Shown piece after piece: positions 25,911-63,713 of a stretch of 64,000 nt of DNA. Every line of letters starts with the position of its first letter. The first letter of the stretch is position 1. The stretch lies in NCBI GenBank assembly GCA_008933995.1, contig WARS01000032.1:248001-312000 (forward strand), in the 5' to 3' direction. Source of the stretch: Datnioides undecimradiatus. Taxonomy: Eukaryota > Chordata > Actinopteri > Lobotiformes > Datnioididae. Both the position numbers and the translations under genes were made by a program. A model generated the notes under the pieces. That model ran no database searches, was not told the DNA's origin, and saw nothing but the letters and a program-made list of their open reading frames with translations.

Positions 25911-26439
25911 GATAATTTATTTGATTCACCTGATCCAGAACAAGAAGTTAACAAGCAAGTCAGTGAATTCAATCACCCACTGTAGTCCAGCTGGTATTTG
26001 GCAGACAGGTTTAAAAAAATGCGTTTCGTTTGTTACATTGTTACTGAACGCAAAAATCCTTGGCGTTACCTCAGTCCTCCTTCAGCGGTCCACTGGGGCT
26101 GCACGCGCTTCTGAATGGAGCCCGGAAGGGGGTGGAGGTTGGGGGCATAAAGAGGGAAAGTTATACTCACTGCTTCTGCAAGAGTTCATACGCCAGTCTC
26201 AGCTAAGTCTGTCCCTCCCTCAATTAAGCACCCTGAAGCATGTAGTCCAGACTTTTAGAAGAGTACGCGGTTTGACGTGTAATTACTTGAGTCTACACGG
26301 TATTCCGTAGGCATTTTGTAAAACTGTTCAATTGCTTAATTTTGCACTTTGTGTTTTCCGGCTTAGTCTTCATAAAACACAAACCTCACGCGCCTATCAA
26401 TGAGATAAAAGGCCTATAGGGTATTTGGGTTTCTGACCG
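25911..26439. other. Head-to-head intergenic region, VWC gene and ccdc24
   Basis: This interval separates the VWC start codon (25910, - strand) from the probable first exon of ccdc24. It includes 5' UTR of the VWC gene and a locally GC-richer stretch (about 26080-26160) with CpGs that is a plausible promoter. I saw no clear TATA box. Confidence 0.45.
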
Positions 26440-41604: not shown

Positions 41605-44011
41605 GGCACTATGTTTTTCATTTGCTCTGTATAGATATTTGAGGCCAAATTATGATGGAACACTGCTGCTCAATCGTTTAGTGGTCACACGCGCACACAG
41701 AAACACACGGAGAAACACACACACGCATTCCTTTCCTGTTTCTCCCGCTGTTATTTTTATCCGTGTTCTTTTGCTATTTCCAAAGGCTCTCGCTCTCTTA
41801 AACATGGTCAATACATTAACCTCCTCTTTTTCCACTCCCTCTCTGTCACTGCACTGTAACTGTGTCCTGGTGCGTGTCACAGTCTCATGTAAAGTACACT
41901 GAAGCTGCACGTGTCACATAAACTCTGTCTTCTTCTGTTCTGTGACCGTGTTTACGACAGGGAAGCATTAAAAAGAAGTTTCGAAGCAAATCAGAACCTA
42001 CACTTGCAGGTGAGTCCATGTACCAACTGTTTGGTGTTTGCTGCCATCTGGTGGCACATTGTTGTTTAACACAGTGTGTGAGGAAAGTTCTCTGTATCTC
42101 TTACATCCCATTTAATCTTTAACTCTGAGAATGAATTTACAGATGAAACATGCATGCTGATCACTTTCCCAGCTGCCCATTAGTTGATAGAACTCATTCT
42201 GAAACTTATTTATGAAAGACAAAAAAGCAGCTCAGGACTCGGGCCAAGTCCATCTACTCTGGGCGAAATGACAATGAAATGAATTTGCGTACATTAGAGA
42301 GCAGTCTGGGTGAAACAGTAAGTGAGTTCATTTTCAGAGCTTGAAAATAAGCACTGTCTCCTTTTCTATGCACTAGGTGATTGTTATCTTTTGATGGTTT
42401 TCCATACTTAAGCATCTGACTGTTTCAATCATAACTGAGAGTGAAGCGATGGTTTCATTATTTTCAGACTTTTTTCAAATCTCCAATCTTGTATCTGTGC
42501 ATGTGCAGAGTTGAGAGAGCTGAGAGGAGCAATCCAAATGGACCTGGAGCTCTACCCCTCTTCATTTACTGCTGCTGCACCGCCACCTACTGCCCCTCTA
42601 CCTTTGAAGAGATTGAAAAACAGGTTTAGGTTTGTATATTTTGCTGTGATGACACCCAGACACGTTCTGTTTTAAGAGGGTAATCTGAGTCAAGGGTCAA
42701 CTGAAAAACAAGCATTTTATTTGGCCAGTAACACAAATCAATTCAGATAAAATGAAAAGGGAATAACAAGATTTAACAAAAGTAAGGGTAGCCACTAAGG
42801 CAATCCTCTTAACCTAATCTAAAGTAAAATAAACCACCTCAAACAAACAAATAATTAAAAATAAAGTGGTATAACTGCCACTTTGGTAAGAAAGAGAGAG
42901 CGAGATAGACAGTGTTCTTCCCCCATCTGTATACAGTAGGTTTTACCAGACAGGCTTAATCAGAGGCTGTAGCATGCCAGAAATCAGCAGGGGAAGGGCA
43001 AAGCACTCACAGTGTGCAGCTGATACCTTAAGGAGCTATTTCACAGTATTAGTTAGATTGTGCCTCTTCTTTTCATTCAAGCATTTTCAGTGTAGGTACA
43101 ATATTGCAACAAACAGTTTTTACTGTTCTATGTACAACTTGTTTCTCAATCTAACTCTACTCTTCATCTTCCTTTCCCCCAGACTGTCAGCAGCACAAGT
43201 GGTTTCTGGGGAGACTCCCCGAGCTTTAAGCACTACATCAGTCCTAAGGCCACATCCACCTCCTTTTCCTCTGTGCCATATTAAACCTAGGCCACCTTTC
43301 AGCGCTCCACCTAGCAAAACGACAGCATCAGTTAAACTAGTTAATAGTTCCTCACAGACTCTTGGACAGCATAGAAGCCGGTCAGCCTCCAGTGGGCCGA
43401 GAAAAGAAGAAACACCGACCTGTAACAGGATCACCTCTTTTACACATGCAGACAGTCATTTCAGCCCCTCACGTACAGACCTCCACAGTGATCTGATCGT
43501 GGCTAAAACCGACCACCTCAGTCTCCCTCCAGAGCAAGATGATGCTGGTCTCCACAGCAGGACCCAGGCCTTTAGACCCAGTTTTCAAATAAAATCTCCA
43601 AGAATCTCAACCATCCACGAAGCCCATCGATCATCCCATGGCAGTATTCAGAGCCCAAGCAGAGAGTGTGATTTGTCACCGCAGACAGAGAGAAAGCGCA
43701 GCCCAGCCTGGAGGTCAAGAGACATCAATACTACCACCTCATCCCTACACTGTGCTGCAGGCAGTTACAGCACCAATAGTAGTGACCACTCTGTGTCAGT
43801 GACTGTGACATCAAAGACACAAAATAGTACCTGTGGAGGTAATTTAATGTCAACAACAGTGCAGGCAGATAATGACAGAAGGAAGAGTACCTCTGAGAGT
43901 TCCCATGCTGGTGTTGGCAGGAAAAAGATCAACAGTGGAAATGATAGAAATAAAAATGGTCACCTTGGGAAGGATGTCACCCAACAGCAGAGCTTAGTAG
44001 CCACTGTTTGA
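27234..44011 (+). CDS. ccdc24: Coiled-coil domain-containing protein 24 (complete)
   Basis: Eight coding exons: 27234-27383, 31096-31280, 35859-35975, 36101-36205, 37485-37539, 41961-42009, 42509-42623 and 43183-44011. Total is 1605 nt, 534 aa, with phase kept at every junction. The N-terminus (SPSQSLWSLIVEHVPGSELP) matches the SLW..VEEHVP start of human CCDC24. The most conserved block, LNVTNIDQVVDRLRSLLTEE at residues 173-192, matches LNVSNIDQV.RHLRGLLEEE of the human protein and continues as a helical ECEALNRLVKHSK. Exon 7 encodes a Pro-rich segment. Exon 8 (residues 259-534) is Ser/Thr/Pro-rich and looks disordered. The function is poorly known; expression in ciliated or testicular tissue is suggested for the mammalian gene. 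Neighbouring b4galt2 on the same strand supports orthology. The protein is much longer than human CCDC24 (about 307 aa), mainly from exon 8. Confidence 0.88.
27384..31095 (+). other. ccdc24: ccdc24 intron after first coding exon
   Basis: Bounded by CAG|GTAAGA and TTTGCAG|GCAGAG. It contains short interrupted CA-rich stretches (about 28895-28930 and 29040-29110) and pyrimidine-rich DNA. I see no other gene. Confidence 0.75.
33305..33631. repeat. Teleost interspersed repeat (GCTAACATGC family), longer copy
   Basis: Contains GCTAACATCAGCATGCTAAC, TTTACCACATGTACTG, GTTTAGTGTGTTAGCATGC, TCACCAAAGTCATTAGAATT, CCACCCACTAGTTGTTAGTT and GAGATATTTCAATTTGGACC. This motif order belongs to a widespread non-coding fish repeat. 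A shorter copy lies at 13036-13175. Confidence 0.55.
33781..34055 (+). repeat. Degraded tRNA-derived SINE (V-SINE-like)
   Basis: An A-box-like ACAGCTCAGTAGG (33800-33812), a degenerate B box CAGGTCTGATGCCC (33912-33925), then TCACTGAGCAAGACACGAAC and a tail GTAAAGTGCTTCAGCGACG followed by ATGTAAATGG. The tail resembles the shared core and 3' end of fish V-SINEs (CTTGAGCAAGACACTTAACC type). A-to-B spacing is longer than in a tRNA, so there may be an internal insertion. Confidence 0.5.
34202..34224. repeat. (TG)n microsatellite
   Basis: TG dinucleotide run in a ccdc24 intron. Confidence 0.9.
34670..34701. repeat. (CA)n microsatellite
   Basis: CA dinucleotide run of about 15 units in a ccdc24 intron. 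Confidence 0.95.
36206..37484 (+). other. ccdc24: ccdc24 fourth intron
   Basis: Bounded by CTCAG|GTGAGT and CTCTCTAG|GTCTCT. It contains a long pyrimidine-rich stretch (36500-36730) and ends in the CTAT array described separately. No gene seen. Confidence 0.8.
37377..37480. repeat. (CTAT)n tetranucleotide array at a splice acceptor
   Basis: About 14 pure CTAT units (37381-37437), then imperfect CCAT/CTAT and CTCT units running to within a few bases of the AG at 37483-37484 that precedes ccdc24 coding exon 5. Confidence 0.95.
41160..41340 (+). repeat. Two tRNA-like B-box segments
   Basis: GGGTTCAAACCCC (about 41180-41192), flanked by GTGGTA and TACCAC, and a second GGGTTTGAATCCCACT about 140 bases later both resemble tRNA T-arms (B boxes). 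Neither is embedded in a complete cloverleaf that I can fold by eye. They are best read as tRNA or SINE remnants. Confidence 0.3.
41569..41603. repeat. (CA)n microsatellite
   Basis: CA dinucleotide run of about 17 units in a ccdc24 intron. Confidence 0.95.
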
Positions 44012-44310: not shown

Positions 44311-45039
44311 CCAGCTTGACAGGTTCAGAAAACAGAAAATCACTCAAAAACAGCCTATAAATCTACAGAGTCAAAGAAACACAAGTTGAAACATGAGTGT
44401 GTACATTCTTGAAACACAGGTTTATATTTTAATATTAAATAACCATCAAAACTTTATTTCCTTTATTGATTTATGTTCATCATCTGTCTAAAGTCTAAAG
44501 GTACTTGTGTACTTGAAAGATGCTGACAAACAGAAAAGCATGCAGTAATAGAGTGAGGGAGCGGCACTTGGGCTGTTTTATATTGGATCATTGGTCAAAT
44601 TACATTTCAACATTAAAACACGAACAAAAAAACACTGGTTCTTCTTTTTATCTGTACACAGATATTTGTGGTGTTTGAAACGTGGCAACGCAGCCACACA
44701 AAAAATCTGAATCATTTCAAATTGCTAAATATTCATGAAATAGAATCAGATTATGCCCCTCTGACATCCCATCTAATGACCTTATGAGTTCTCCAGGTTA
44801 CCCTCAATATATCAATATAAAGCTTGCCAAAAACCTGATACTGGAAGTGAACAACCTCGCGTTCAGCCACGCGTATCCTAGTTTGTCAGTGCAGCCAAAC
44901 TCACCGGGTGAAAACCTGTTATGTTGCTGCAGCGTTTGATTATTTTAGTTTCGTTTTCAACAAGTCACACCCCAAGGTGTGATACTGACCTCTCAGTCGC
45001 GTAAGGATAATTCCCGTCCGTTCACAAACTTGTAAACGA
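44311..45039. other. Intergenic, ccdc24 to the SAM/VWA/UBC gene
   Basis: AT-rich spacer with no recognised gene or repeat. GC content rises toward 45100, where the probable promoter of the next gene begins. Confidence 0.6.
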
Positions 45040-45146
45040 TATATCGCTGCTTAGTGTTTTCTGTGTAATTTCTCCGAATTGCTCTAATCCATCGGGTTTG
45101 CTGACGTGCCGCGCCGCTGTTGTCTGCACTCATACTACGAAAACAG
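45040..45146 (+). promoter_or_regulatory. Probable promoter and first non-coding exon of the SAM/VWA/UBC gene
   Basis: The start codon at 45854 immediately follows an acceptor (TTTGTATAG|ATG), so a 5' non-coding exon is required. CATACTACGAAAACAG|GTGAGT gives a strong donor at 45147. The upstream bases GCTGACGTGCCGCGCCGCTG are locally CpG-rich. The transcription start itself is not determined. Confidence 0.4.
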
Positions 45147-45853
45147 GTGAGTTGCTGTTTTCATCAGGTTCCGACAGTAACAGCAGTGTCATTATTAAGA
45201 ATTAAGTCATAATTTTGTGATTTTGCGGTATATTATATAGTATATAGAGAGAGATTTTAAATTGCCGCTTTCAATTTCCGACAACTATTTAAGAAAACAC
45301 TGTGAATGATATGTAAACTGGGGCTGAAAAGCGAATCGCAAATTTTTACTTTTACTTCTACTTCTACTTTATAAAAAAAAAGTCACGTGAAATAATCCCA
45401 TGATGCACAGGCTTGTAAATGAAACCAAAGGATCGTCAAACCAGCAGCTGGAGGAGGGAAGCTGCGGGTATGTGTTTGTGCGCGCGCGTGTGTGAGCTCC
45501 GTCGTCCAGAGAGGAGAGAGCCTCGGCAAATAGTAACAAACGGAATGTGCACAATTACTGTTAGTAACATAAGTAAATGCTTATTAGTGCAGTCAAACTA
45601 AGGATGGACAGTGAGGATGGATGGTATTATGATACTATTAGAATGGCGGATGCAGTTAGCTATAGAATAATATGCGTGGATAGCACTCCCTGCTGTTTTA
45701 ATTGAACACAAAACTTTTTCAGACTTCAGCAGTTTTACCAACACTCATCATTTTCTCCGCTCTATTGATTTGTTTCTAACCTGCCAGCGTTGTTTCATGT
45801 ATTCAAGAAGATGGAGTGAGCGATGACAAAAGTATCTCCATGTGTTTGTATAG

Positions 45854-48800
45854 ATGGGTGCCATATTTCACATACTCGAGCAGTTCAGACTGGAATCTTA
45901 CTACAGCCAGTTTTCCCAGTTGGGTGTCAAGGATGAGAGAGATTTCCTGGATGGCATTACAGATGAAGACCTAACCAACATTGGTGAGATAGCCCTCAAC
46001 TTTAAACCAAGCACTGTAAAAAAAAAAAAAAAAAAGAAATGTGGCTGCCACTAAGTGGAAAACCATTAATACATTACAGAGTATTTGTATTTTTTGCCAA
46101 ATGAAAGATTTTTTTTTTTAATGCCAAACCATGTACATGACAATAAAATCCAAGGCAGCAGTCACCCTATACTATAAAGTGTCATATAGTGTTTCTGATA
46201 TCCTCATATACATTTCCTGTGCTGTTCAGTGCCATCACACTCAATGAACAACTCAAAGACGATCAAAACAAAAGGCCATTTAGAGTTAAATTTCCACTAT
46301 ACTATATAAAGATACATTAATTACTCAAATACCATTTTCCAGGTTTAAGTCATGTGGAGAAGAATCGTTTTTCAGCCATGAAAAACTTAATTCAAAGACT
46401 CCGAGCTCCTGAGCAGCAAGTTCAAAATGAGACACCTCTGCAAAAGTCACTGGAGGCGTTCTGTCTGCAGTACATGTACCCTAAATGCCCTTGTCCAAAA
46501 TATATTAAAGGTAAGAGGAACTCATTGCTTTGCTTCACACAGTGGGATCTGATGTGTTTGAAATACGATGTAATGATTGTGTTAAAGGGATAAGAATACA
46601 TTGAGAATACACTCACATACTCCTGGGCAGCTTAGCAATGTTTTTCATTTTATTTTAAATGCACAGATATGGATCCAGCTCAAAACACAGTTGAAGACCT
46701 CATGTTAAGGATCGGCCATCTTGAAAGTGTTGGCAATTCCAATGGTGTCTGTCTCTACACAATCAATGGGATGCCCTTGACTGATGATCCCTTCTTCAAC
46801 ACATGTGAGCAGACAGTGAATTTTACTAGATATTTGATTTTATGTTGCCACGGTGATTCTTAATTTTTGTTTTTAAACATTTACTGGGTTTGTGGCTGTG
46901 AAAGTAACACTATATAGGACCTATATAGAGACTCTGATTCTGAGCGTTTCTAGAACAGCGTCTCCTGTGTGCGCTTCTGCTGTCTCAAATGTGCCTCAGC
47001 CACAAGTCTTGTCCAGGACAAGACCAGTGTCAGATTTTTGTCAAAAGTGGAGACCAAAAACTGAGCTTACAGCAGAGAGAGTATTTGATTAGCATTCATG
47101 AAGTATCCTGACACAGTGCTCTGAATAATGTAATAAATAAATAAATTAAATATAAAGCCTGATGCTAAGAGGTCCACCATATCAACATGAAATGTGTTCT
47201 CACGCAGGGTCTTTGAAAGACAGACATATTCAGAGTGGAGATGTGATTTACGCCATCTTTACACCAAAGGAAAACTTGAAACAGGCTCCTCAGATACCAA
47301 AGCGAGAGGCTGCTGAAACCTACGGACACGATGTGGTTCGATGCAACATTATGCTCAAGGTGCGTCTTAACAACTAATGATAATATTAGCAATTGATTAG
47401 TTAATATTATTGTATAGTAAGATGTATATCGTTTATGTATTGTCCTGCCTTAAAAAGCATAATTCACCATCACCACCCTGTCCTCCAAAGGCAAGAAGCA
47501 CTTGGCTGTTTACATATTTTAATGTTATTGCTTAAGCATTCCCAAAATCTTTCCCTTGAAAGGCCAAAACTGAATAGAGGGCAATGGGCTATAAGTAAAT
47601 ACCTTTTATGTTGTATTGATGAGTTTTTAAAGATACCAGGATCCCATGTTACTTACTGCAGGTAGGGCTCAGGACTCTAAAATGACATTGTTCATTGTTC
47701 ATTAACCACTATGGAGGTCACATTATTTTTTTTAAACATACATTAGATGAGGTATACATTCAGTATTTATATTTGTTTATTTCACACAGGGAAACTATGA
47801 GGTTGTGGTGAACTTGGCAAGTGACACCCTAACCAGTCTGAGACTCAAGCTGGCAAATGAAAGTGGAATCCCAGCACATGTCCTTTATTATAAGTAATTC
47901 AGAATCATCACACAAAACATTGACCATATGGCCATCGTTGACCCTCACTCACACGGTGACTCTATCCTCTCCTGTGTTCATCATATTTGCAGAGGTTCAC
48001 ATTTTGGTGGTGACATACTGCAGAGTTGTGGAATTGCTAATGGCTCAACAGTCTCCTTCTCTTTGTCCACCTTCTCTGACGAGACTCCACACAGCAGCAC
48101 ATTCTTCATCAATGACGTCCTGCCTTCAGTCCAACAAACCCAGAAAGGAATCAGTGTGTTGTTGTCATCACTTTATGCTATTGTAAGTGTTTTGCAATAC
48201 GTTGTTAGAACTGTGCACTATTTTCATCTGTATTCCATTATATAACATTGTTTAAATATGAGCTGCTTTTAATGGAAGAGTCATCAGCCCTGTACTGTGT
48301 GTCTGCACAGAGTCATTTCATTACTATGTTTTTAGCCATGCTTACAGCATGGTTATGATGAGCAGTCTGCCTGTCCACCACTTTGGTCCTTATCAGAAAA
48401 AATTTTAATAATTTAGGTGACCCTTCAGCTTTTAATCTAGTGCAATCTCAAGGTCAAACTGTTCAGTTTGTCTTATACTTGGTTTGTGACCAAATACAAA
48501 TACAAACACATTTCCATGAACCCTAGCTGTACCACGTTCCTGCTATTTGGAAAATTGCTGGGGGCATCAGCATCTCTGATTTCGTAAGCATGTTTGCATT
48601 AACACCAGTCCTGCTGGCATGGCTCTAGACTGTTAATCATGTTTAATGAAAATAGACATTCATAACTAGTCTCAAAAGATTGCAAATTTGTAATAAAGCT
48701 GCAACAATGTAAGCCTACTTTACCCCAACTCTGATGTGGATGTAATCTTACTTTGGGATACCTTTTCTTTTAGAGAGTTCATTACAAAAGAGAGAAACTG

Positions 48801-51800
48801 AAGAAACTGATTTCCTACATACGGCAACTGACTGGATGTCATCCTCTTGCCCAAAGTTTGCATCAGTTACTCAGCAGGAATGAAAGATTAACCAGGAACC
48901 AGAAGGTAAATAATATGAGTTGACATAATTAGGCCTTTTATGTTCTTTGCATTGTTTGTTTTGTAAATGGGTGGTCTGATGTGCTGCATTGCACTTCAAT
49001 ACTTAATAGATAACATTGTTACATATATGCATACATTTTTTTGAGAAATGAGATCTATAAAATGTTTTCTGTTACCAAACAAAAACTAAAAATAATATAA
49101 TTCCCTATTTTAGGGCCATGAAAAAAGTGAAAAAACCTTATGAGCTACGAGCAGGAGCTATTCTCTCTTGAATGTGTGAAAGACCAAAAGTTCAATAGTA
49201 CGTTCAGTAGATTATTCTGAGTAACTGGTGACAACCACGCGTCAAGATGTTTTCTCTGTAATTTGCATACCTATGTCTCTCTGTTGCTTGTGCTTGTTGT
49301 ATTGTAGGTTGCAGTTATTGAAGGCTTGTACTTGCTCTTCAGAGAGCTTCTTCCTCAACATGGAGCACAACAGGGGGGGAAAGTCATTGAAGACCTGCAT
49401 GTCTTTGAGAATTCGCTGTACTGCTGGGCACATCTCCTATCAGAGGCTGAGGTATGATGACATTGAGGTTTGACTGTTATTGATGTCTCACAACACCTTT
49501 GCTTGAAGTGCCATTAATTTCAGCAAATGGCTCATATGTGACTTGAATTTGTTTATGAATGGACAAAGGTTAATTCAGTAGCTGACCAGTTAAGACATGA
49601 TCCCTCTGCTTTTCCTTATATTGACAGAAACAAACATCAGACCAGGAGAGCTATGCGCCAATGACTCTTACATCTGAAGATGGCAGCCGCTTCTGTGAAC
49701 CAGTCAGAGTACCTGGTGTACCCTGTGCTTTCGAACGAGCAAAGGTTCTCCAGAAAATCAAAGGTAGAACTGAAACATTGACATTAAACTGAGGAGACTT
49801 GCTGCATTCGCTGTCTGAGCAGAGAAAACGCAGATAGCAGCCCCACTGTTTGCTGCAGAAGCTCAGAACAGCTGCTTAAAAAAAAACAACGGTGTCTCAC
49901 GATTACAAGTATTTTGTTATCTCAAGAAAACAGTTTTGTTATGATCAGTGCTCATGACATAAATGAACTGGGCACTCATTTTTGAGTTCTCCTTGCTTAT
50001 CATGTTTTCAAGTCACCTTCCCACAACAAATTATCTCACTATCTTGAGAAACCTCGCTTTTGTTTTCTTGAGATAAGTTAACAAGTAATCACATAAGAAT
50101 AAATGTTGCTATCTTGAGATAATGAAATAATTATCTTCTGATCTCACAAATGTGTCATATTTACCTATTTGTGCTTGACTTGGGTAGTTAGATATTTCAG
50201 CAAGCTCTGAACAGTCTTGGAATTGGATAAATGGGGTGTGACTAGACTGTCTTTGGGGTCTTACCCCAAAATCTGCGATGATATATGGTTTCCATATATA
50301 CTGTGACAATAAAGGCAGATCTGAGAAATTCCAAGAACACAAGTTTTCACCATTCAGTTGCCATATGTTAAAAGTTTTTGACACCAAGTCACTGCATGAA
50401 TTGTTCTGCAGGGTTCCTGAAGACGCTGATGGATTCATTAAAATTTGGTGCAACATCTAATGAGACATAAAGCACTGAGATGCTCATCACATACTTAAAT
50501 CATAATGTTTTAAGCCTTCAAACACTCTAAACTTTCAAAATTAAAAGGTCAAAGATCAGAGATTTAAATTAATCCCCAGGTTTCAGGTGATATGTATCAC
50601 CTTTGACCTGCTGTTCGCCCCTAAAGAAAAAACATGAATAAAAAGTGTTCTGTTGTAACTTCATCAACTCTAACCTAAATTTTTCTTTGTTCTTGTTTTA
50701 TAAGTGAACTAATGCGCTTCATTTCTGTCCTTTTGTTTAGTTGGAGAGAAAATTCCAAATTGCACCGAAGAGGTTTTGCGGGAGTCTTCATTACAGAGAG
50801 CCAAAGACATTGAAAAGGTCCTGCTCAGTTTGCCTCCATACATCAAAACTTATTCTCTGTGGATTCATCAGAACAAGACGACAAACCAGAAGTAAGTTTC
50901 ATCAAAGTTTTACTTTTCCCTAAATCAGTGAGATCATTTTTTCTGCTCCAATTTATAGTTATTACATTTGCTGTTATTGGTTTATTATTCTACTTTTATA
51001 CAATGCTTTTGTCATAAGCTGCAGAAAATGTACTTTGGTGCACTTAGTATTCACCAACAAATGGTACAATAAATGTTCATCATCATTTGTGCCAATGATA
51101 CAAACATTATAGACTTAATAACCAAAATATTAAATGTTTTTGTATTTTTTGAGGTTTCGAGCAGGACAGTTAAAAAATTGTGATGTTTTTCCCAATGATG
51201 GCACAAGAGAGTAAAGAATAAGCACACGCATAATGTTTACTTGTACAATCGTCTTTTTTAAGATTGTATCCTATTGTGATTCTCTATTGTCAATTCCCAG
51301 TATTCAATACAAGCTAGAGCACTGGAGAATACATAAAAACAATACAACATCCAATATCAACGGTTGTAACTAGCGTTCAGTGAAGCCCTGCATGGGTTTG
51401 GTGCAACAATAAAGTAATTCAACACACTCAGCAATTAACAGTTAAATATTATCTACAGAATATGTTTTATACTCTTCTCTCAGATGTGTGAAGTCAATAT
51501 CACACAGAAAAGACACTCAGCTCAGGCTTTCTTACCATATTTTAGTTTTAAATGTAAAACGCCTTTTTTTTTTAGAAAATTACTAGATTAAAACAGCAGA
51601 TTTAAACAGTTTATATGTAAATTGTATTGCACCACCCCAGAAAAAAATCTATAACACATAAAATCAAAATCACAGGTGGGATGTCATAAACTGCCTCTTC
51701 AGTTATCAAACGTGACGTGAGCAACCTCAGCGCTCGGTCTCACAGGTCACAGTGACTCCTTTTAGCCCCTCTGAGGACAAACCTTTCCGCTTCCTTCATT

Positions 51801-54800
51801 TATGAAAATGTAATTTTCTTAATGTTGTTATACATCTCCAGTAATGACACTGATTTTAATGTCATGTCTGTCACATTAGTCCTCTAAAAAGATGGCACCA
51901 CCTTAATTGCTTATATCCCAAACTATTTGTTGCATCCAACAGAAGTTTTGATTTTGACTTAAACCTTGTTCTCCTTTACCTTGTACAATGAATTGATAGC
52001 TTCAAGATCAACATGGTGAAGACTTTTGGAAGTATGGTGGAAGACTTAAAATCTCCCGCCAACCGGTACCTCAACGTGACTCCACCTCTGCGCTTGAAGG
52101 AGCTGGGACAGTGTGAGGTGCGCCTTCTTCTGCTGAGTGAAGGTAAAATCACAACCTGGATGGATCATTTCTGACCAAATGCGTGTACTTACTGCACCAG
52201 AGTTATGTGCCCAACTGCTGCACATGTGTGGGGACGACTCAAGGCCCCCAAACATCCATCATGTATCCATCCATCCTGTAACAGTATTGGGTTATCGCTA
52301 TTTTTAAGTAAAGGATGTGTGTACTTATTCCACCACAGGGGTCACAGAGAGACAGGGCTGTCTACAGAAAAGGTTCATGCTTTGCTAAGCCCTTATTTTT
52401 CTTCTGTCTGAGCGACACATTCAGTTGTGTTATAGGCATAGGATGTGGCTCCACAACACAGCCAGTGTAAGATGCTTTGTGTGTGGAGGATGTCTGGTTC
52501 ACAGTGATGCCTCCTCACAGTAAAGAGAAACACAGAAAAACATTATGCTCCGTGTTCTCAACCACTCTGATGGGAACTTACCACCAATTTCAGTTTTATC
52601 TCTAATATTAGTGCCGTTTTTAATGAATGAGTGATTTTTTTTTAAATGTCTTTGTCAGACAACGTTGGTCTGTGTTTGCAAAAAGAAAAAGGATCCCCTG
52701 ATATGATCAAGGTGCATGATTGTTTGGATGGCAAAGCAAAATCAGTGGATGTGAATCTGTTGGCAGCCAGGTAAGCACCTTACACTGCAACAAAGAAGCA
52801 CTTTTATGGAGTATTCTCTTGCTCTTTAACTCAGTGTTATTCTGAAAGGATCTCCTCTGCTTCTTTCCCACAAAATCAGAATATCTCAGGTCATGTTTTG
52901 CATTTTTATTGTATGAGAATATCTTTTTTCAAAGTCAGCTAAAACTAACGGACAGACCACATGAGGTCTATAGAAACAGCCGATATGGAGACAGTCAAGA
53001 AAATTCATTGTGCTTTAAATTAAACAATGGGATTTTTTTTCTTTCTGATTTGAATTTGCACCTCCAAAAATGTAAATTTAAAGTTATTTCTTGAAGTATT
53101 TTTAACATGTTAAATGAAGTGACTAGGAATTCATCTCCTTTTTGTACAAAAGCAAAAAACAAAGACCTCCAAAGTCCTAAAATTTACATGTGTTTTATTG
53201 TTTCTGTATACAATATACATGCTCTACAGCTTTTTCTGTAGTTTCTACAGCAAGCGGGCACCTGTATAAATCGTGGTATGTGCAGCACACAAAAGGCTTG
53301 TGTATAGTGTATGAATGTATGTTAAACCAGCTGGTTGACTGTTTCTTTTTTGACATGCAACACAGGACTGGTGACTATAGAGACGACCGCACATTCGTAA
53401 CAACCAGAAGTCCAAAAGAAGCAATCCTGGTAATGTTTTGTTTGTCTCACATCTTTAGTTATTTTTTTAGAAAAACATGGAATGGGTGGGACAAGGTTAG
53501 ATTTTTTTTTTTTTTGCTTGACTGTTCAGTGTGGAGCCACTGCAGTACCTTTACATAAAATTAAATTTCAGTTTCCATCAAATATTGTTATTCAAAATAG
53601 GAAAAAAACAACATATTTTGAAGTGTGGAATCTACCCAGGGAATGGTTCTGACCATAACACATCAATAATACATAATGCTTGATCATTCGTAATCATGTA
53701 AATATGCCATACATTCTACATCATGACTACACAATGGAATAAAACTGCATTTGAAAATGAAGTTTGGAAGTTTTTTTCTACATCAATGTCAGGGCAAACT
53801 TAAAATATGATATTTTTTATGTGAATTTCATCATCAGGTGCTGATAGATACAAGCTCCTCCATGGAAGAAGAGTGCTACGAAAGTGCAGAAATAAAGAAA
53901 ATTAACGTGGTCAAGGAGCTCTTTGACAACTTTGCAACAAGGACCATGGCATATGATTTCCATCACATCATTGGCCTCGTGAAGTTCGACTCCATGGTGA
54001 AAACTCTGCATACGTTTACTGAAAATCTGGAAACGTTCAAGGTAAATTCTGTTTATTTTAGAAAAGTGTGCACCCGGTTGAAATGTGGTAATGTAATCCT
54101 GTGTGGAGAATTCAGAGAGGTTCTTTTCTCATTTGTAGGAACACATCCGTAACCTCGAGGCAAGTGGATGCACACTGCTGTATGACGCCCTGCGACGTGG
54201 GGCGTCCGAATTGGAAAAGGTCAAGATGAGGTTCCCCAACTGTAGACTTCGCATCATGTGTCTCACTGATGGAAATGATTCAGGGTAACTTTCTTTCCCT
54301 TTTTTAATCAGCTATGTGACAACGACTTCAACATGTTTTTTTCAGTAAGCTGACATCATAATCTCTTCATAGATCCTCCATAGAGCCAGTTGCTGTCACG
54401 GCAAAGCTGCTGAAATCCAACATCATTGTGGATTCAATCCTTCTTGGAAATGTGGAGAACAATATGCTGCATGGAATCAGCAATGCAACAGGTTTGGCAC
54501 CTTTAAGTCAGCTTCCTTAACTGAGTTCCTTAAACCTCAAATGTTCTTCTAGTTCTCTGTGACAGACTTTTAGGATTGATGGAATTCAAGCTCATCACTG
54601 TAGAAGTCTTATTTAATGTTGTTAGCTGGTCCCAATGTGCTGGTGTCTGGGTCTTGGTCACTTTATTTCCTACATTAAACATAAATATTATTATGTCACA
54701 ACAAATAAAATAGCAAAATGAAGCAATTTAATGTGAACAAAACAAAGAAACACTCATGGTGTACCCACTGATCTGGAGTAACCCCAGGAGAGTTCAGATT

Positions 54801-56773
54801 CTTTTCCAGATCACAGTATGCCAAGCATGTCATGGTAATGGTTTTGTTCAAACTTACATTTTTTTCAGAAAGTTCAACAGAAGCGGCCAAACACATGGGA
54901 TGATTAGTACCACATGTGGTGTGATTTTATTGAATGTGCTAAAAATTGTTTTTCTGCTGCAGTGTACACAGAGCAATGTAAACGTAAAAAGTGGCTGGAA
55001 TATGTTTTTATGTTGCTTTTTAGTTTTTTGAGTTTTAAATGCCTCTTCGTGACACCGGATGGCAACAGAACTTATTTGATGGTGCAGTTATTCAGATTTG
55101 TGGTAATCTCTTCACCACACCTTCTATGTTACTTCCAGGTGGTTGTTGTTTCAAACCGCAGACAACCAAAGAGGGTCTGAGGCTGTTTGAGATTGAAACC
55201 GTTCTGTCTTTGGAGCAGAGGACAATCAAGAGAAAACTGAATCCGTCTCTCATCAGTGAAGTTAGTGATTTCAGATCATTGTCCACCGTTCTGCCGGAAG
55301 TGATATGAAAATGATGTGCTAACTCATTTGTCCCTGTAATTTTATAGGGCATTTTGAACAGAATCTTCATGATTCAGGGGTATGACAAGTATCCAGAGAC
55401 GTCACTGCCAAGTCAGATAAAAAGCAAAGTGACAGTGACAGAGAGGTGAGTGAAAGTACCACTGCTGCATAGATGCTGATAATAAACCAGCTGCCTGTAC
55501 TGTCAGAGAAGTTCAGCATACTCTGTCTGTCTTTTCATTATCTGGTTTTACTATTGCATTACTATAGCAATCATGCCAGGTGGTCACACAACATAACTCA
55601 TTAAGTCAATCCATTATACAGAGAAACTGCAAGTGTCACATTGGTACTATACAGTATCTTCACCCAGAAACTCAATCTAATGTAAAAATCATCATGGAAA
55701 ACGATGAACAAATGATTTTTCCAGTTTCTGAACACTAAGAGACACACCATCAACGTTTGTACAACATGTCACAGCAATCCCTCCAGTATTTGTTAAGGTA
55801 TTGTAGTGTGGACCAGACAGTCAATCACGCTGCCACACTGACTAAAACTTGAACACACTCTGATTTAATGTAAAAAGTGCCTTGCAAATGATGTGCTGAA
55901 AACTAATATTTTTTCCAATTTTCATTGATTTTTGAAATGTCTTGATAACTAACAGGACTGAAAACAGATGAAAAGAGAGCTGGCATAGACACATAGCCCC
56001 GAGATTACAGATTAATTTTATATTTGTATATATTTACTATCTAAAGGGGTTTGCATTACGTTTGAAGCATTAGTAATACTTCTCCATAGGACTCTGAAAA
56101 AGAAGATGCCAGAATTAAAACGAGGATGGTTTCTGGAGAAGGACAAACGTATCCTGGAGGAGCTGAGGAACCTGCATTGTGACCCACATCCCTTCATCAG
56201 AGTCTTTCCATCTGAGTCAGACTTTAGTGAGTGGCCTCTTCTATAATTTTGGTCAAATGCATGTACATTGCATTTGTACTCTGCACATCACAACATGTTT
56301 TTCTTGTCATATTCTTTGATATTTTACCTCGTACGTTACGCTTTTATCAAGTTTTAAGTAATAAAAAACGACATTTTTTAAAAATAGCATTTTGGAAGAT
56401 TCTCATGGAGGGTCCTCCTGACACGCCCTATGAGAAAGGAGTGTTTGAGCTGTACTGCCAGTTCGGTCCCGACTACCCAGTGAAGCCTCCACTCGTCCGC
56501 TTTGTCACACGAGTATCCTGCCCAAATTGAAACTTTTGTGAAATGTGTCTAGTCATGCACGTTGAACTTAATGAAGTGATATCGTGTTAGCAATGCACAT
56601 GGTGTTGTTCTTAACACAATGACAGGTGTACCACTGCAATGTCAACAGTGTGGGCCGCATCTGCCATAACATATTTGACCGCAACTACAATGCCCACATC
56701 ACCATGAGAGAGATCCTGGAAGCTGTGTATGGACTTCTCATCATCCCGGAACCTGACGATCCACTGGACAGGT

Positions 56774-56811
<38 letters not shown>

Positions 56812-57696
56812 AATAAGTCACACTCACATACATAAATAAGTCTTGGTTGCATGAGTCAGTTGTCGCCAAAGCTCATTTTTAACAAGAGCTATTCCTCATG
56901 CTGAGGATGTTTTTGATTCATTCAATCTTCAACCTGCTTATGTTCATTTTGATTTGACTTTGTCTGACATTGATCATTTGATCCCTTACTTTGACAAAGT
57001 GAAAAAGCGGCTGTTGAGAAGCGACTTTGTTTTACCTCTCTATAAAGATTGAGGCTCAAAAAGTTGTTGACATTTTACAAATGTGTTGGAAAAGCTGAAT
57101 TTTATTTTTATTTTTTTTGGGAAGTGTTTTGGCCGAGGAATTCCTGACCAGCCGTGAGACGTATGAGCGAGAAGCCGAGAAACATACAGAAGAAACAGCA
57201 GGAAACTCGCTGGATGACATGGAGAAAGTAAAAGGACTCTATACAAATCAGTAGTGGATATCACCTTTTTTTCGTATTACATGTTTACATGACGTCAATT
57301 ACAAAGCGTTTATGTTCTATGTTTCCTCTGATATTTTTTTTTCAAGAAACTGGTGACCCCTGTGCCGCAATTTATACCCCAGCATCTGATCTGTCCACTC
57401 ACCAAGAAAATGTTTATTGATCCTGTCAAAACAGTGTATGGGACTGTGTATGAACGCAAGGCCCTAGAGGAACACCTGAGACAGTGAGTTCATTTACCGC
57501 TGTTGACTACGATTAAAAATAGTTTACCGGTAATGCTTGTCCAAATGAACTAAATAACTAATTATTCATTTGCAGACACCAGTATGAGCCGTTGGCCGGC
57601 CCAGGGCATGAGCTTGAAATGAGTGACATCATAACAGACCAGGACATGAAGAAAATGGTGATGGAACAGCGTTCTCGTCAAATTGAATCAAAGTGA
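45854..57696 (+). CDS. SAM-Ubl-Ubl-VWA-UBC-U-box multidomain protein, 1073 aa
   Basis: Exons, first half: 45854-45983, 46343-46510, 46667-46804, 47208-47359, 47790-47893, 47993-48182, 48774-48905, 49308-49451, 49628-49763, 50741-50891, 52000-52142, 52659-52770. Second half: 53366-53429, 53838-54041, 54139-54284, 54373-54491, 55139-55260, 55348-55445, 56090-56226, 56388-56512, 56626-56771, 57125-57227, 57347-57483, 57576-57696. The total is 3222 nt and all 23 junctions keep phase. In order the protein has a SAM domain (5-63), two ubiquitin-like folds (100-164 and 188-258), an unassigned region (295-588), a VWA domain with full MIDAS (589-775), an E2/UBC domain with Cys918 (838-975) and a U-box-like end (998-1060). 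There is no signal peptide or membrane segment, so it should be intracellular. I recall no named vertebrate protein with this order. The likely role is self-contained ubiquitin transfer; substrate unknown. Confidence 0.88.
45866..46403 (+). other. SAM domain (residues about 5-63)
   Basis: Split over the first two coding exons. It reads FHILEQFRLESYYSQFSQLG, then a DERDFLDGITDEDLTNIGLS segment, then a C-terminal helix (RFSAMKNLIQRL). The L..Y...F..LGV..E..FL.GITDEDL..IGL pattern is typical of SAM domains, which mediate homo- or hetero-oligomerisation. That suggests this protein may self-assemble. Confidence 0.75.
46667..47262 (+). other. First ubiquitin-like segment (residues about 100-164)
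   Basis: Encoded by exons 46667-46804 and 47208-47359. NTVEDLMLRIGHLESVGNSN resembles the helix of a ubiquitin fold, CLYTINGMPLTDDPFFNTWS the core strand and turn, and LKDRHIQSGDVIYAIF the 'L.D..IQSGDVI.' closing strand (compare LSDYNIQKESTLHLVL in ubiquitin). There is no C-terminal Gly-Gly. The assignment is by pattern only. Confidence 0.5.
47334..48074 (+). other. Second ubiquitin-like segment (residues about 188-258)
   Basis: Spread over three exons. CNIMLKGNYEVVVNLASDTL then SLRLKLANESGIPAHVLYYK matches the ubiquitin layout strand, strand, helix, GIP, strand. GSHFGGDILQSCGIANGSTV then SFSLSTF matches the '..L.D...L...GI..GSTL.L.L' ending. This is the clearer of the two ubiquitin-like folds. 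It too lacks a Gly-Gly tail, so it is unlikely to be conjugated through its C-terminus. Confidence 0.65.
49885..50150. repeat. Palindromic TTATCTC/GAGATAA repeat cluster
   Basis: Within an intron of the multidomain gene. TTATCTCAAGAAAAC, TTATCTCACTATCTTGAG, TTTTCTTGAGATAAG and ATCTTGAGATAATG recur in both orientations. The wording resembles an interspersed repeat seen in several fish genomes, but no ends can be set. Confidence 0.4.
53838..55260 (+). other. VWA domain with intact MIDAS (residues about 589-775)
   Basis: Starts at VLIDTSSSM, giving the DxSxS motif Asp592, Ser594 and Ser596. It continues through the GLVKFDSMVKTLHTFTEN strand-helix, the MIDAS Thr668 in GCTLLYDAL and the MIDAS Asp700 in MCLTDGNDSG. 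It then runs through LLKSNIIVDSILLGN (a typical later VWA strand) and ISNATGGCCF (compare L..IA..TGG.YF). All five MIDAS residues are present, so divalent-metal-dependent ligand binding is likely. The domain is split over exons 53838-54041, 54139-54284, 54373-54491 and 55139-55260. Confidence 0.85.
56148..57187 (+). other. UBC (E2) domain with catalytic Cys918
   Basis: Residues about 838-975. RILEELRNLHCDPHPFIRV is the N-terminal E2 helix. FWKILMEGPPDTPYEKGVFE, FGPDYPVKPPLVRFVTR and YHCNVNSVGRICHNIF follow the E2 core closely, as does the EPDDPLDS closing block. Asn910 and Cys918 keep the eight-residue N-to-C spacing of the HPN...C active site (as in HPNINSNGSIC). The HPN proline is Cys909. 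The usual Q.WSPALT is replaced by NYNAHIT, so the Ser-Pro-Ala loop that many E2s use to contact RING/U-box domains is absent. Confidence 0.85.
56776..56808. repeat. (CA)n tract beside the E2 active-site exon donor
   Basis: A CA run of about 16 units that starts four bases after the GT donor at 56772, downstream of the exon carrying Cys918. Confidence 0.95.
57347..57696 (+). other. U-box-like C-terminal domain (residues about 998-1060)
   Basis: Encoded by the last two exons. IPQHLICPLTKKMFIDPVKT then VYGTVYERKALEEHLRQ follows the U-box signature (P..F.CPIT...M.DPV....G.TYER.AI..HL). The second half (EPLAGPGHELEMSDIITDQD then MKKMVMEQ) is shorter than usual and lacks the CP.TR/Q..L block. It may therefore be a reduced U-box or a related zinc-less RING-like fold. 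The protein ends at SRQIESK, TGA at 57694. Confidence 0.7.
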
Positions 57697-58123
57697 ATCT
57701 TTGAAGTTAGAGCAAGTTACTGGCATCTCAGTACTTTCATGCAGTTTCAGCGTTTTGAAGAGATGTTTGGTCAGTTCTTGATAAGCCTGGTACTGATAAC
57801 ATTGCTTTCATCAGCTCTTTCATATCATAACCTTTAAAGTTTATATTATTTTAATTAACTCTCATATAATTTGTGATGGTATTAAAATTGTGCAATTTGA
57901 ACAGGGTAATAATCATTATGGATATGTTTTTTGTGTTGTGAACACTGTTTTTGTCCTTACACCACTTCACTTTATAAGAACATGTGCTTGTTTTCTCTGT
58001 TGAGACACTAGCGCTTGAGTTAATTCCTGATATTAACTTTTGATTGTTCAATGTTTGTTTTCCATGATTTCACATTTCCTTTTTTTCATCCATGTTAATT
58101 CTAATAATTCAATGGACAATAAA
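57697..58123 (+). terminator. 3' UTR and polyadenylation signal of the multidomain gene
   Basis: AATAAA at 58118-58123 (GGACAATAAAATCACAC) is the first canonical hexamer after the stop codon. Confidence 0.55.
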
Positions 58124-59765: not shown

Positions 59766-60195
59766 TCATAAGAAAGGAATAAATACACATGATAGAAATA
59801 TGGCTGTGTTAAAATGGGTAAGAATTGTTGGTATTACAAATATACAACAAGAACTAAAAGCCAGCGAGAATAAATTAGTCTTTAAAAGTGTTTTAAACTG
59901 GCCAAGGGTGTGGGAAGCTCTTACATGGAAAGGTAAGCTGTTCCAAAGATTGGGGGCTACAACAGAAAAGGCTCCATCACCTCTGCTTCTGAGCCTGGTT
60001 CTGGGACAGTCCAAGACCAGTTCATTAGCTGACCTCAGTGCTCCGGCTGGAGTATGAGGCTGTGGGAGCTCAGCCAGGTAGGGTGGTGTCATGCCATTCA
60101 GACTCTTAAAAACAAGTAATACAATTTTGGAGTGGATCCTAAAACAGATTGGAAGCCAGTGTAGGGAGGCCAAAACAGGTGTAATGTGATCTCAA
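59766..60195 (-). mobile_element. 3' fragment of an L2/CR1-group LINE (ORF2 end)
   Basis: On the - strand the frame reads LASLHWLPICFRIHSKIVLL, then FKSLNGMTPPYLAEL, RSRGDGAFSVVAPNLWNSLP and FKTLLKTNLFSLAF. This is the stereotyped end of ORF2 in L2/Rex1-like fish non-LTR retrotransposons. The upstream limit is about 60195, where an in-frame stop and unrelated sequence begin, so the element is 5'-truncated. It sits in intron 1 (59078-60548) of them6 copy 1, opposite to the gene, and is inactive. Confidence 0.8.
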
Positions 60196-60552
60196 TGAAT
60201 ATAAAATGCCTTTTTTTGGGTCACGGATACTGTAATTTGAGACCAGATTGGCCTAAATAATCTCATATTGCTAAGAGGTACAGAAATGAATGGTTCCCAT
60301 GGAAATCTGTTAGAGCTGTCAGTCAAAGCAACACTTCAGGAGCTAATAAAAGATTTAGCATAAAGCAGTGTAAATTGAATGTTTGTGACTTTATTTAATG
60401 AACTGTAACAATATGAGCAGTGAAATAATTCATTCATTTGGTAAAAATGTATTTGTTTAATTTGATGAATAACTTGATTCATTTTTTTTTCCATATTAAG
60501 TAACCACACTGCCTTCCTCTGCTTGTGTACTGTACATCTGTTCCCCAGAGAG

Positions 60553-61263
60553 ATGTGGTGGGTGCTGTGGGTGCTCGCAGCCTTGCTGGCGCTCTTTTGC
60601 AGTTTTGACGTGTGGTACTTCCTGCGGGTCGCTGCTGTGATTCTGCGGGCCTGGTTCCAGCCTCCAGTCTGGGATATCACAGCGGAGCAGACCATCACTG
60701 GCCGGGTCACTTCCCATGACATCGACATGTGCCACATGAACAATGCCCGCTACCTGCGAGAGTGTGACTTTGCCCGCTTCTCCCTCTACGTGCGCAATGG
60801 TGTGTTTAAGGCACTACGAGCACTCAGAGCTTCAGTGGTTGTTGGGGCTACCACCATCCGTTACCGCAGGGCTCTGTGTATAGGTGAGGGATACGAGCTC
60901 CGGAGCCGCATTGTCACTTGGGATGAAAAAGCCTTTTTCCTGGAGCAGAGATTTGTGTCGACCAAAGATGGGTTGGTGTGTGCCGTCATGTACTGCAAGC
61001 AGAGTGTCATACGCAGTAGCCCAGACAAAATCATGCAGCACCTGTGTAAGCGAAAGGTAAGGAACCTGTGTTTCATCATTCACATATACACTGGAAAGGT
61101 AGTAAAACAAAACTCCTTTGATAACTAATGAACATTCATGGTTTGTTCACTGCAGGTCGAGTGCCCTGAGTTTCCAGAGGACCTTCAGCACTGGGTCAAC
61201 TTCATCTCTGCCAGCAGCCAGTCCCTAAGGGCTGAACGTGGACTAGAAGAGAAAAACAAATAA
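60553..61263 (+). CDS. them6: Thioesterase-superfamily member 6-like protein, copy 1
   Basis: Two coding exons, 60553-61056 (168 codons) and 61156-61263 (35 codons plus TAA), give 203 aa; human THEM6 is about 208 aa. An N-terminal hydrophobic helix ([14 protein letters not shown], then DVWYFLR) is a likely signal anchor. The hot-dog fold follows with [41 protein letters not shown], and a conserved C-terminal [16 protein letters not shown]. The family has a 4HBT-type fold and is ER-associated, but its substrate is not established. The active-site loop is D56-I-D-M-C60-H61, one residue shorter than in copy 2 and with Cys in place of Gly. The start was chosen because both copies have the same CAG|AGAGATG boundary; the frame is open further upstream only through intron sequence. 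Confidence 0.88.
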
Positions 61264-62392: not shown

Positions 62393-62950
62393 GTGAGTTT
62401 TGCAGCAATAAAAAGATATGTTTAGAGCATATGTGATTGTAACTTAAACTTTTAAAATGGAGAAAACATGAAATATCGACTTTGCGCGTCATGAGTAAGA
62501 TATATTATGCCAAGGCCACCAACTCCTGGTAGCTAGCAGCTAAGCTAATAGATTTGGCTGTCACAGCAGGTTGCGCCGCCTTCATTTGAATGCAGCGGCT
62601 TTAGCTTCCTGGTCCTCTCAAGGTTGAAGTGGGTTATTTATGTGAATATGCTGTGTCCGTATTTTTAGCTTTAATATAGTACCAACGATTGCCAGAGGCA
62701 CTAACCTCTTGTTACTTTCTTTTCATTTGCACTGACATTGATGAGGTCAAAGGAGCATTCGCTTAAATATTGAGCGTGGTCATGGTTTTTAAAAATGAAA
62801 CTGCTTTGTGTAAGCGTTTTTGAAGAAATGCTTTGGATTTATATTTTTAAGTCTCATGGAATTACTGTTGTAATATGTAACATATAATTTGCCTGTAAAT
62901 GTATCACTTCTGATTCTTGGTACTAATAGTAGGATTGTTGTTACAGAGAG

Positions 62951-63713
62951 ATGTTGCTGCTGGTGCTGGGTGCCCTCCTCCTGCTCTTCTGCAGTCTGGA
63001 TGTATGGTACTTCCTACGGGGGGCCCAGGTGTTTATCGAAGCATGGTTCCAACCCCGAATAAAGGATATTCTAGCTGAGCAAAGCATTGACGGCATGGTC
63101 CTTCCCCATGATTTGGACTACATGGGCCACATGAACAACTCCCGCTATCTAAGGGAGTGTGACTTTGCCCGTTTCCACCATTACATGCGAAATGGGCTGT
63201 TCATGGCCTCACGCAAGCTGGGGGCCAAAATGGTCGTTGGGGCCTCCACCATTCGCTACCGGCGCTCATTGGCCTTCCGTGAGGCTTTTGAGATTCGGAC
63301 CAAAGTACTAGGATGGGATGAAAAAGCCTTTTACTTGGAGCAGCGCTTCGTGTCCAAGAAAGATGGTTTTGTCTCTGCAGTTATGCTCTGCAGGCAGAAT
63401 GTGGTGCGCTGCAGCCCAGAGAGCGTTATTGAGTTTGTCTGCAAAAAGAAGGTGAGGAACAACAGGGGATGCTTGTACAACAGCTGCGGGGCTTCAGCTA
63501 TGTGATGTTATGCATGCCCAACCAGTATCCAAATATACTGAGTTTTCAACAGCAGACTGCTTTCATTCTGCGTTGGCTCTCAGCTAATTTTGTCTTTGTG
63601 TGCAGATCGAGTGCCCCGAGTTTCCAGAGGACCTCAAACACTGGATTAGCTTCATCTCAGCCAGCAGCCAGGCCCTGAGAGCAGAGAGTGGACTGGAAGA
63701 GAAGAACAAGTGA
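62951..63713 (+). CDS. them6: Thioesterase-superfamily member 6-like protein, copy 2
   Basis: Two coding exons, 62951-63451 (167 codons) and 63606-63713 (35 codons plus TGA), give 202 aa. The N-terminal hydrophobic helix [20 protein letters not shown] is again followed by the hot-dog domain. The active-site loop is canonical, D54-L-D-Y-M-G59-H60-M-N-N, close to the D..GH.NN pattern of 4HBT thioesterases. The blocks [20 protein letters not shown] and [16 protein letters not shown] match copy 1. Exon boundaries are at the same places in both copies (CAG|AGAGATG, RK/KK|GTRAGG, CAG|RTCGAGTGCCC), so this is a tandem gene duplication, not retroposition. The two copies have clearly diverged. By its loop, copy 2 is the better candidate for the ancestral activity. 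Confidence 0.9.

Follow-up and report, generated by a model that had tools for sequence, protein, structure and literature searches.

A duplicated fish gene predicted to encode SAM, ubiquitin-like, VWA, E2 and U-box domains in a single chain

Gene structure

The window analyzed here is a stretch of 64,000 nucleotides from the fish Datnioides undecimradiatus (GenBank assembly GCA_008933995.1, contig WARS01000032.1, positions 248,001 to 312,000; labeled C476:248001-312000 within the 581 Mb of genome searched). Its forward strand carries a gene at 45854..57696 whose predicted protein joins a probable SAM domain, a conserved segment, a ubiquitin-like (Ubl) domain, a middle region, a VWA domain, a ubiquitin-conjugating (UBC, or E2) domain and a U-box in one chain. 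A second copy of the gene, referred to below as the paralog, is located on contig C5. The window had previously received an initial annotation made from the sequence alone, and its phase-consistent model of 24 exons and 1073 residues is reproduced when the gene is rebuilt from the raw sequence. The exons form a single frame (3222 nt including the TGA stop codon) with no internal stops, all 23 introns are GT-AG, and the coding region as a whole is further supported by a paralog with the same exons.

On the + strand, exons 1-8 occupy positions 45854-45983, 46343-46510, 46667-46804, 47208-47359, 47790-47893, 47993-48182, 48774-48905 and 49308-49451. Exons 9-16 follow at 49628-49763, 50741-50891, 52000-52142, 52659-52770, 53366-53429, 53838-54041, 54139-54284 and 54373-54491, and exons 17-24 at 55139-55260, 55348-55445, 56090-56226, 56388-56512, 56626-56771, 57125-57227, 57347-57483 and 57576-57696. 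The splice sites of introns 1-12 were scored with a model trained on introns 13-23, by which the top 16% of GTs include 10 of the 12 donors and the top 11% of AGs include 9 of the 12 acceptors; the acceptors of introns 6 and 9 are middling (32% and 37% of AGs, respectively, score equally high). Codon usage, trained on exons 14-24, prefers the model frame in 12 of the 13 first-half exons, with exon 9 as the exception.

A splice-acceptor-like sequence (..TTGTATAG, 45842..45853, + strand) directly abuts the ATG, and the paralog has CCGTCAG immediately before its own ATG. Since an acceptor-like sequence abuts the start codon in both copies, a non-coding first exon is likely to lie upstream. The CpG-rich stretch at 45001..45500 (observed/expected CpG ratio 1.19, no strand assigned) is a possible promoter region. 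Approximately 420 bases past the stop codon, an AATAAA at 58118..58123 (+ strand) is a candidate poly(A) signal by motif; the interval 45-58.6 kb holds 32 AATAAA or ATTAAA motifs.

Domain content

A Pfam search with the full window protein detects three domains in the C-terminal half, all over their curated cut-offs, in the order VWA (VWA_2, residues 587-701, 3.4e-11), UBC (UQ_con, residues 838-974, 1.9e-35) and U-box (residues 998-1063, 8.6e-10), as the initial annotation had proposed. The metal-site motif of VWA domains consists of DxSxS, T and D. The VWA domain of the window protein (residues 587-753, 53424..55164, + strand) contains the complete MIDAS-type set (D592, S594, S596, T668 and D700), and the equivalent residues are kept in the paralog. 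A single-sequence search of the VWA domain against PDB returned nothing at E<=0.01, and NCBIfam gave four matches, all across the VWA region and far under cut-off.

The UBC domain (residues 838-974, 56148..57185, + strand) has UBE2E1 as its best PDB match (5.4e-29). Its predicted catalytic cysteine, Cys918, is encoded at 56662..56664 (+ strand) within an HCN motif, with the Asn910 of the HxN motif eight residues upstream. The paralog keeps these residues as well as the DPL-turn aspartate, and the presence of a UBC domain with a catalytic Cys and HxN in both copies is the basis for its predicted class, E2. A (CA)n repeat at 56772-56810 starts directly after the donor of exon 21, which encodes the E2 Cys; variation in its length could affect splicing.

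The U-box (PF04564, residues 998-1063, 57374..57663, + strand) starts 23 residues past the UBC match. It scores 39.1 bits against a cut-off of 21.4 in the window copy and 60.2 bits (2.1e-16) in the paralog, and its best matches among solved structures are LubX and CHIP. The 23-residue spacer is the same in both copies, though residues 978-997 are 45% identical. The proposal that an E2 and a U-box share one reading frame and one gene is borne out at the level of genomic sequence, and the paralog has the same arrangement.

At the N-terminus, residues 1-63 (45854..46401, + strand) are likely to form a SAM domain. The family PF22931 SAM_TNK is matched with E=0.02 by the full window protein and 9e-5 by the segment (22.9 versus 25 bits) and with 7.7e-5 by the paralog segment (23.1 versus 25 bits), and the Caskin SAM is matched in PDB at 0.022. 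The SAM domain of the initial annotation is retained on these matches as likely, at scores that narrowly miss the Pfam cut-off.

Two Ubl segments had been proposed downstream, of which the second stands. This domain, Ubl2 (residues 184-262, 47321..48086, + strand), matches PF00240 as the sole family found, below cut-off in the window copy (0.024-0.058), while the paralog segment passes the cut-off (1.6e-6, 28.2 versus 25.4 bits); within the full-length paralog the score is 24.1 versus 25.4 bits. Single-sequence phmmer searches of PDB with the window stretch from SAM to Ubl2 found no ubiquitin chain. A profile built from the two Ubl2 sequences found 232 PDB sequences at E<=1, the best 60 of which are ubiquitins, engineered ubiquitin variants and ISG15. 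The top E-values of this search are inflated by polyubiquitin chains; among the matches listed, the highest-ranking single-copy chain belongs to an engineered variant (0.0024), with ISG15 at 0.026. Ubl2 is accordingly predicted to be a ubiquitin-like domain through the paralog and the two-copy profile, and because it lacks a C-terminal Gly-Gly it would be a built-in domain rather than a tag.

The first proposed Ubl, residues 80-172 (46450..47287, + strand), is described here as a conserved segment, being 76% identical to the paralog with a ratio of nonsynonymous to synonymous substitution rates (dN/dS) of 0.106. On a home-made Ubl profile, shuffled sequences scored at or above the real one in 15 of 2000 cases for this segment, 4 of 2000 for a control segment from the VWA domain and 0 of 2000 for Ubl2. 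As the VWA control did better, the score of the first segment is no evidence for a Ubl, and a ubiquitin fold was not accepted for it. The middle region (residues 263-585, 48087..53420, + strand) is 62% identical to the paralog; it matches no known family in profile searches and gives one match, at 0.4, in a single-sequence search of PDB.

A second copy and purifying selection

The paralog is located on the minus strand at C5:1870962-1859053 and encodes 1068 residues. All 24 exons were placed by similarity, 21 of them at equal length, and 710 of the 1067 aligned residues (67%) are identical between the copies. The placement script imposed GT/AG ends, the absence of stops within exons and exon lengths that differ by at most 36 nt, in multiples of 3; these features hold by construction, whereas the equal lengths, the similarity and the stop-free joints do not. 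The last exon of the paralog is weak by itself (14/39 residues identical), and the paralog U-box match spans profile positions 1-69 of 73, extending through that exon.

Independently of the script, a genome search with residues 1-846, which scores its best candidates only, yields 37 exon-level matches; they fall on C476 (19, in the window gene) and C5 (18) and nowhere else. Of the 27 matches to the E2 and U-box part, 6 lie on C476 and 5 on C5; the remaining 16 are at other places and cover the UBC part only. In total, 78 UBC and 27 U-box matches are found in the genome, and inspection by eye places both within 10 kb at these two loci only. On contigs C471/C472 and C215/C218 the E2 and U-box matches are nearly identical and similarly placed, which suggests uncollapsed haplotypes in the assembly.

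Comparison of the two copies by the Nei-Gojobori method gives a dS of 1.07, a dN of 0.227 and a dN/dS of ~0.21. The ratio is 0.11 in the conserved segment, 0.12 in UBC, 0.16 in VWA, 0.19 in SAM, 0.23 in the middle region, 0.24 in residues 757-836, 0.29 in Ubl2 and 0.43 in the U-box; substitutions are saturated in three short linkers. The ratios are far under 1 in both the N-terminal and the C-terminal half, as expected of a single gene with a single product. The dS of ~1.07 and the 67% identity rule out that the C5 locus is another haplotype of the window gene. A tandem duplication is ruled out by the different contigs and the lack of shared neighboring open reading frames (ORFs): of four ORFs neighboring the gene in the window, none was found at E<=0.01 in C5:1849001-1879000, a span that includes ~10 kb of flank at each end of the paralog.

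Both copies carry an open exon chain, the domains described above, intact catalytic and metal residues, and the marks of purifying selection. The gene is not a chance assembly; it is real, duplicated and under purifying selection along the chain. A full-length paralog with matching exon anatomy makes a gene split or a pseudogene very unlikely.

Pairing of the E2 and U-box domains

The protein is read here, with somewhat better than even confidence, as a self-sufficient enzyme combining E2 and ubiquitin ligase (E3) functions, in which the U-box positions the loaded E2, the VWA domain binds a substrate or partner and the Ubl regulates or docks. A ubiquitin-activating enzyme (E1) would load ubiquitin onto Cys918. 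The U-box, either tethered by the 23-residue spacer or supplied by a neighbor in a SAM-made assembly, would then position the loaded E2. The VWA metal site would bind an acidic group of the substrate or of a partner, with the Ubl either regulating the enzyme from within or offering a place to dock. Expression, enzyme activity, pairing in cis and what the SAM, Ubl and VWA domains do are inferred. The initial annotation had SAM assembling the protein, VWA selecting the substrate or triggering activity, and ubiquitin passing within the chain; its reading is supported in part, as to one gene with E2 and U-box in frame, a VWA domain with its metal site and a Ubl.

Several observations weigh against this reading, beginning with the contact surface. 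The CHIP U-box is reported to need S-P-A on loop L7 of the E2, to contact Phe62 and to use Arg272 (PMC2396629). Loop L7 is N-A-H in the window copy and N-A-Q in the paralog instead of the S-P-A of CHIP-cognate E2s, a Val occupies the UbcH5 Phe62 position, the equivalent of CHIP Arg272 is absent from the U-box of both copies, and the U-box differs from CHIP at F237, R263 and V264 as well. It keeps a Leu for CHIP I235, along with the equivalents of His260 and Pro269. Given these departures from the CHIP/UbcH5 contact residues, ordinary pairing in cis cannot be assumed. The U-box is also the least conserved named domain, at 52% identity, and its window copy is the less canonical; it draws weak matches to zf-Nse, a SUMO-ligase type finger (17.1 bits in the window copy and 24.8 in the paralog, below the cut-off of 27), and chains of the SUMO ligase NSE2 match it in PDB at 0.025. 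Elsewhere in the chain, intron 12 has a poorly scoring acceptor (77% of AGs do at least as well), the SAM domain is under the curated Pfam cut-off in both copies, and the conserved segment has no ubiquitin-family match in Pfam in either copy and no match in PDB.

The altered surfaces fit either a private pair, formed as the E2 and U-box changed in concert, or a state in which each works with other partners. The latter would leave the two domains sharing a chain without serving each other, with the U-box recruiting UbcH5-type E2s or the E2 using other E3s and the chain acting as a scaffold. This is considered rather unlikely, although the N-A-H/Q loop, the Val and the missing Arg all speak for it, as does the retention by the U-box of the Leu, His and Pro equivalents. 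The equal length of the spacer and the keeping of both domains together in both copies speak against it, and a change on the same contact surface in both domains fits a privately co-adapted pair just as it fits a scaffold.

Decay of the window U-box after duplication, with the E2 and VWA work kept and full function left to the paralog, is less probable still. It would account for the highest dN/dS among the named domains, for the gap between 39.1 and 60.2 bits, and for a window U-box whose second half departs from the DPV..PLT pattern common to CHIP and the paralog. The window U-box nevertheless scores over the Pfam cut-off in an intact frame, and either copy may be the one that changed. By far the least probable alternative is that two genes, one for the SAM-Ubl part and one for the VWA-UBC-U-box part, have been falsely joined at intron 10. 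At 1108 nt, that intron is longer than any other in the window gene, the unspliced frame stops just past exon 10 (ORF end 50895), and the acceptor is moderate, with 11% of AGs scoring equally high. Its donor, however, is strong (0.8% of GTs score equally high), no CpG peak occurs there (observed/expected ratio 0.36-0.40 across the intron), and the paralog has the identical order and junction with an intron 10 of 350 nt, the split codon and flanking residues being conserved (NQNFKIN in the window copy, GQNFRIN in the paralog).

Beyond the self-sufficient enzyme, a bolder picture is put forward tentatively: a self-contained tagging machine of fishes, and perhaps of many animals, though missing among the seven main human U-box genes, in which the metal-site VWA domain would capture the target, the Ubl would restrain the enzyme up to that point and a co-changed E2/U-box pair would apply the tag. 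That the pair has become private, no longer mixing with other E2s and E3s of the cell, is a part of this picture that is likewise doubtful.

Neighboring sequence

Downstream of the gene, two tandem genes on the + strand (60478-61128 and 62933-63505), which we take to be THEM6-like, are 62% identical to each other, and no others turn up when the second is searched against the genome. A frame at 59766-60191 (- strand) is similar to the end of a fish long interspersed nuclear element (LINE) reverse-transcriptase protein. On the upstream side, a 373-residue frame at 42890-44011 (+ strand) that is rich in Ser, Pro and Thr is probably a long exon, or part of one, of the upstream neighbor, and frames at 24451-24804 and 25479-25916 (- strand) look like exons from a gene for a secreted, VWC2-like protein with a VWC domain; these three assignments were made by eye.

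Around the paralog, immunoglobulin-like frames (V-set or Fc-receptor-like) flank the gene on both sides (C5:1849495-1855533 and 1874557-1875571), a hint that it sits in an immune-gene neighborhood. An open frame at C5:1877215-1877835 (+ strand) is similar to a piggyBac-derived transposase. Both were likewise recognized by eye.

Comparison with known proteins

The expectation that E2 and E3 activities normally sit on separate proteins proves too strong, as BIRC6 and UBE2O are called E2/E3 hybrids and classed as atypical E3s, with a UBC domain and E3 function in a single polypeptide as proposed here (PMC13061254), and are also named as multidomain E2s (PMC11354881). Unlike in those proteins, the E3 part of the fish protein is a U-box, accompanied by SAM, Ubl and VWA domains. 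To our knowledge, BIRC6 and UBE2O have neither a U-box nor a VWA domain. The best reading is an E2/E3 hybrid that would resemble BIRC6 and UBE2O in principle and is built differently, which makes it a new build of its kind. The E2 itself is like those of the UBE2E/UBE2D class in its UBC fold, HCN/HxN motif and catalytic Cys, and unlike them in that the S-P-A loop, Phe62 and the Leu-Asp after the Cys are all replaced.

Partial resemblances occur among U-box proteins. Marin 2010 counts seven main human U-box genes and describes genes with VWA and U-box in Monosiga, Naegleria and other protists as ancient and 'not present in animals' (PMC3087547). The Mb_UBOXa-type protist proteins, of which Mb_UBOXa itself has the accession XM_001744651.1, share with the fish protein a VWA domain and a U-box in one predicted protein; they are compared by description only, and the available text of PMC3087547 does not mention UBC, SAM or Ubl in them. 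WDSUB1 likewise combines SAM and U-box in one animal protein and differs in its WD40 repeats, with VWA and UBC unmentioned in that same text (PMC3087547). Multidomain fusions of UBC or U-box are further known from PARPs, with UBCc in those of fungi, moss and a green alga and a U-box in one of Dictyostelium; the fish protein has no PARP match in Pfam, and the available text of the two sources reports no UBC and U-box together (PMC2964712, PMC4245714).

According to the initial annotation, no named vertebrate gene is known to have this domain order, and the open-access literature agrees, in part among the matches listed: no description of a SAM/VWA/UBC/U-box protein was found in it, and the available portions of PMC4327156 and PMC7159879 mention no VWA/UBC/U-box protein. 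This argues weakly that such a protein is missing from print, and the gene may well be annotated automatically in fish genomes. Searches of IMG/VR, queried with the entire protein, with exons 14 and 21 and with a two-copy alignment of exon 14, found no genuine relatives; some of the peptide patterns cross exon joints and therefore could not match intron-bearing DNA. One IMG/VR hit, 16 residues long and located on a phage-like contig, was rejected as a chance match. In GTDB contigs, the exon-14 alignment gave 76 pattern matches, none of which was confirmed.

Pairing between E2s and E3s is usually weak and promiscuous. Few E2/E3 hybrids are named, and a U-box beside its own E2 would allow this pairing to be studied as a natural fusion, in two paralogs with differing U-boxes. 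Homology to the protist VWA/U-box genes, if it holds, would call for a correction of the view that animals lack them (Marin 2010; PMC3087547) and would raise the question of the gene's fate in mammals.

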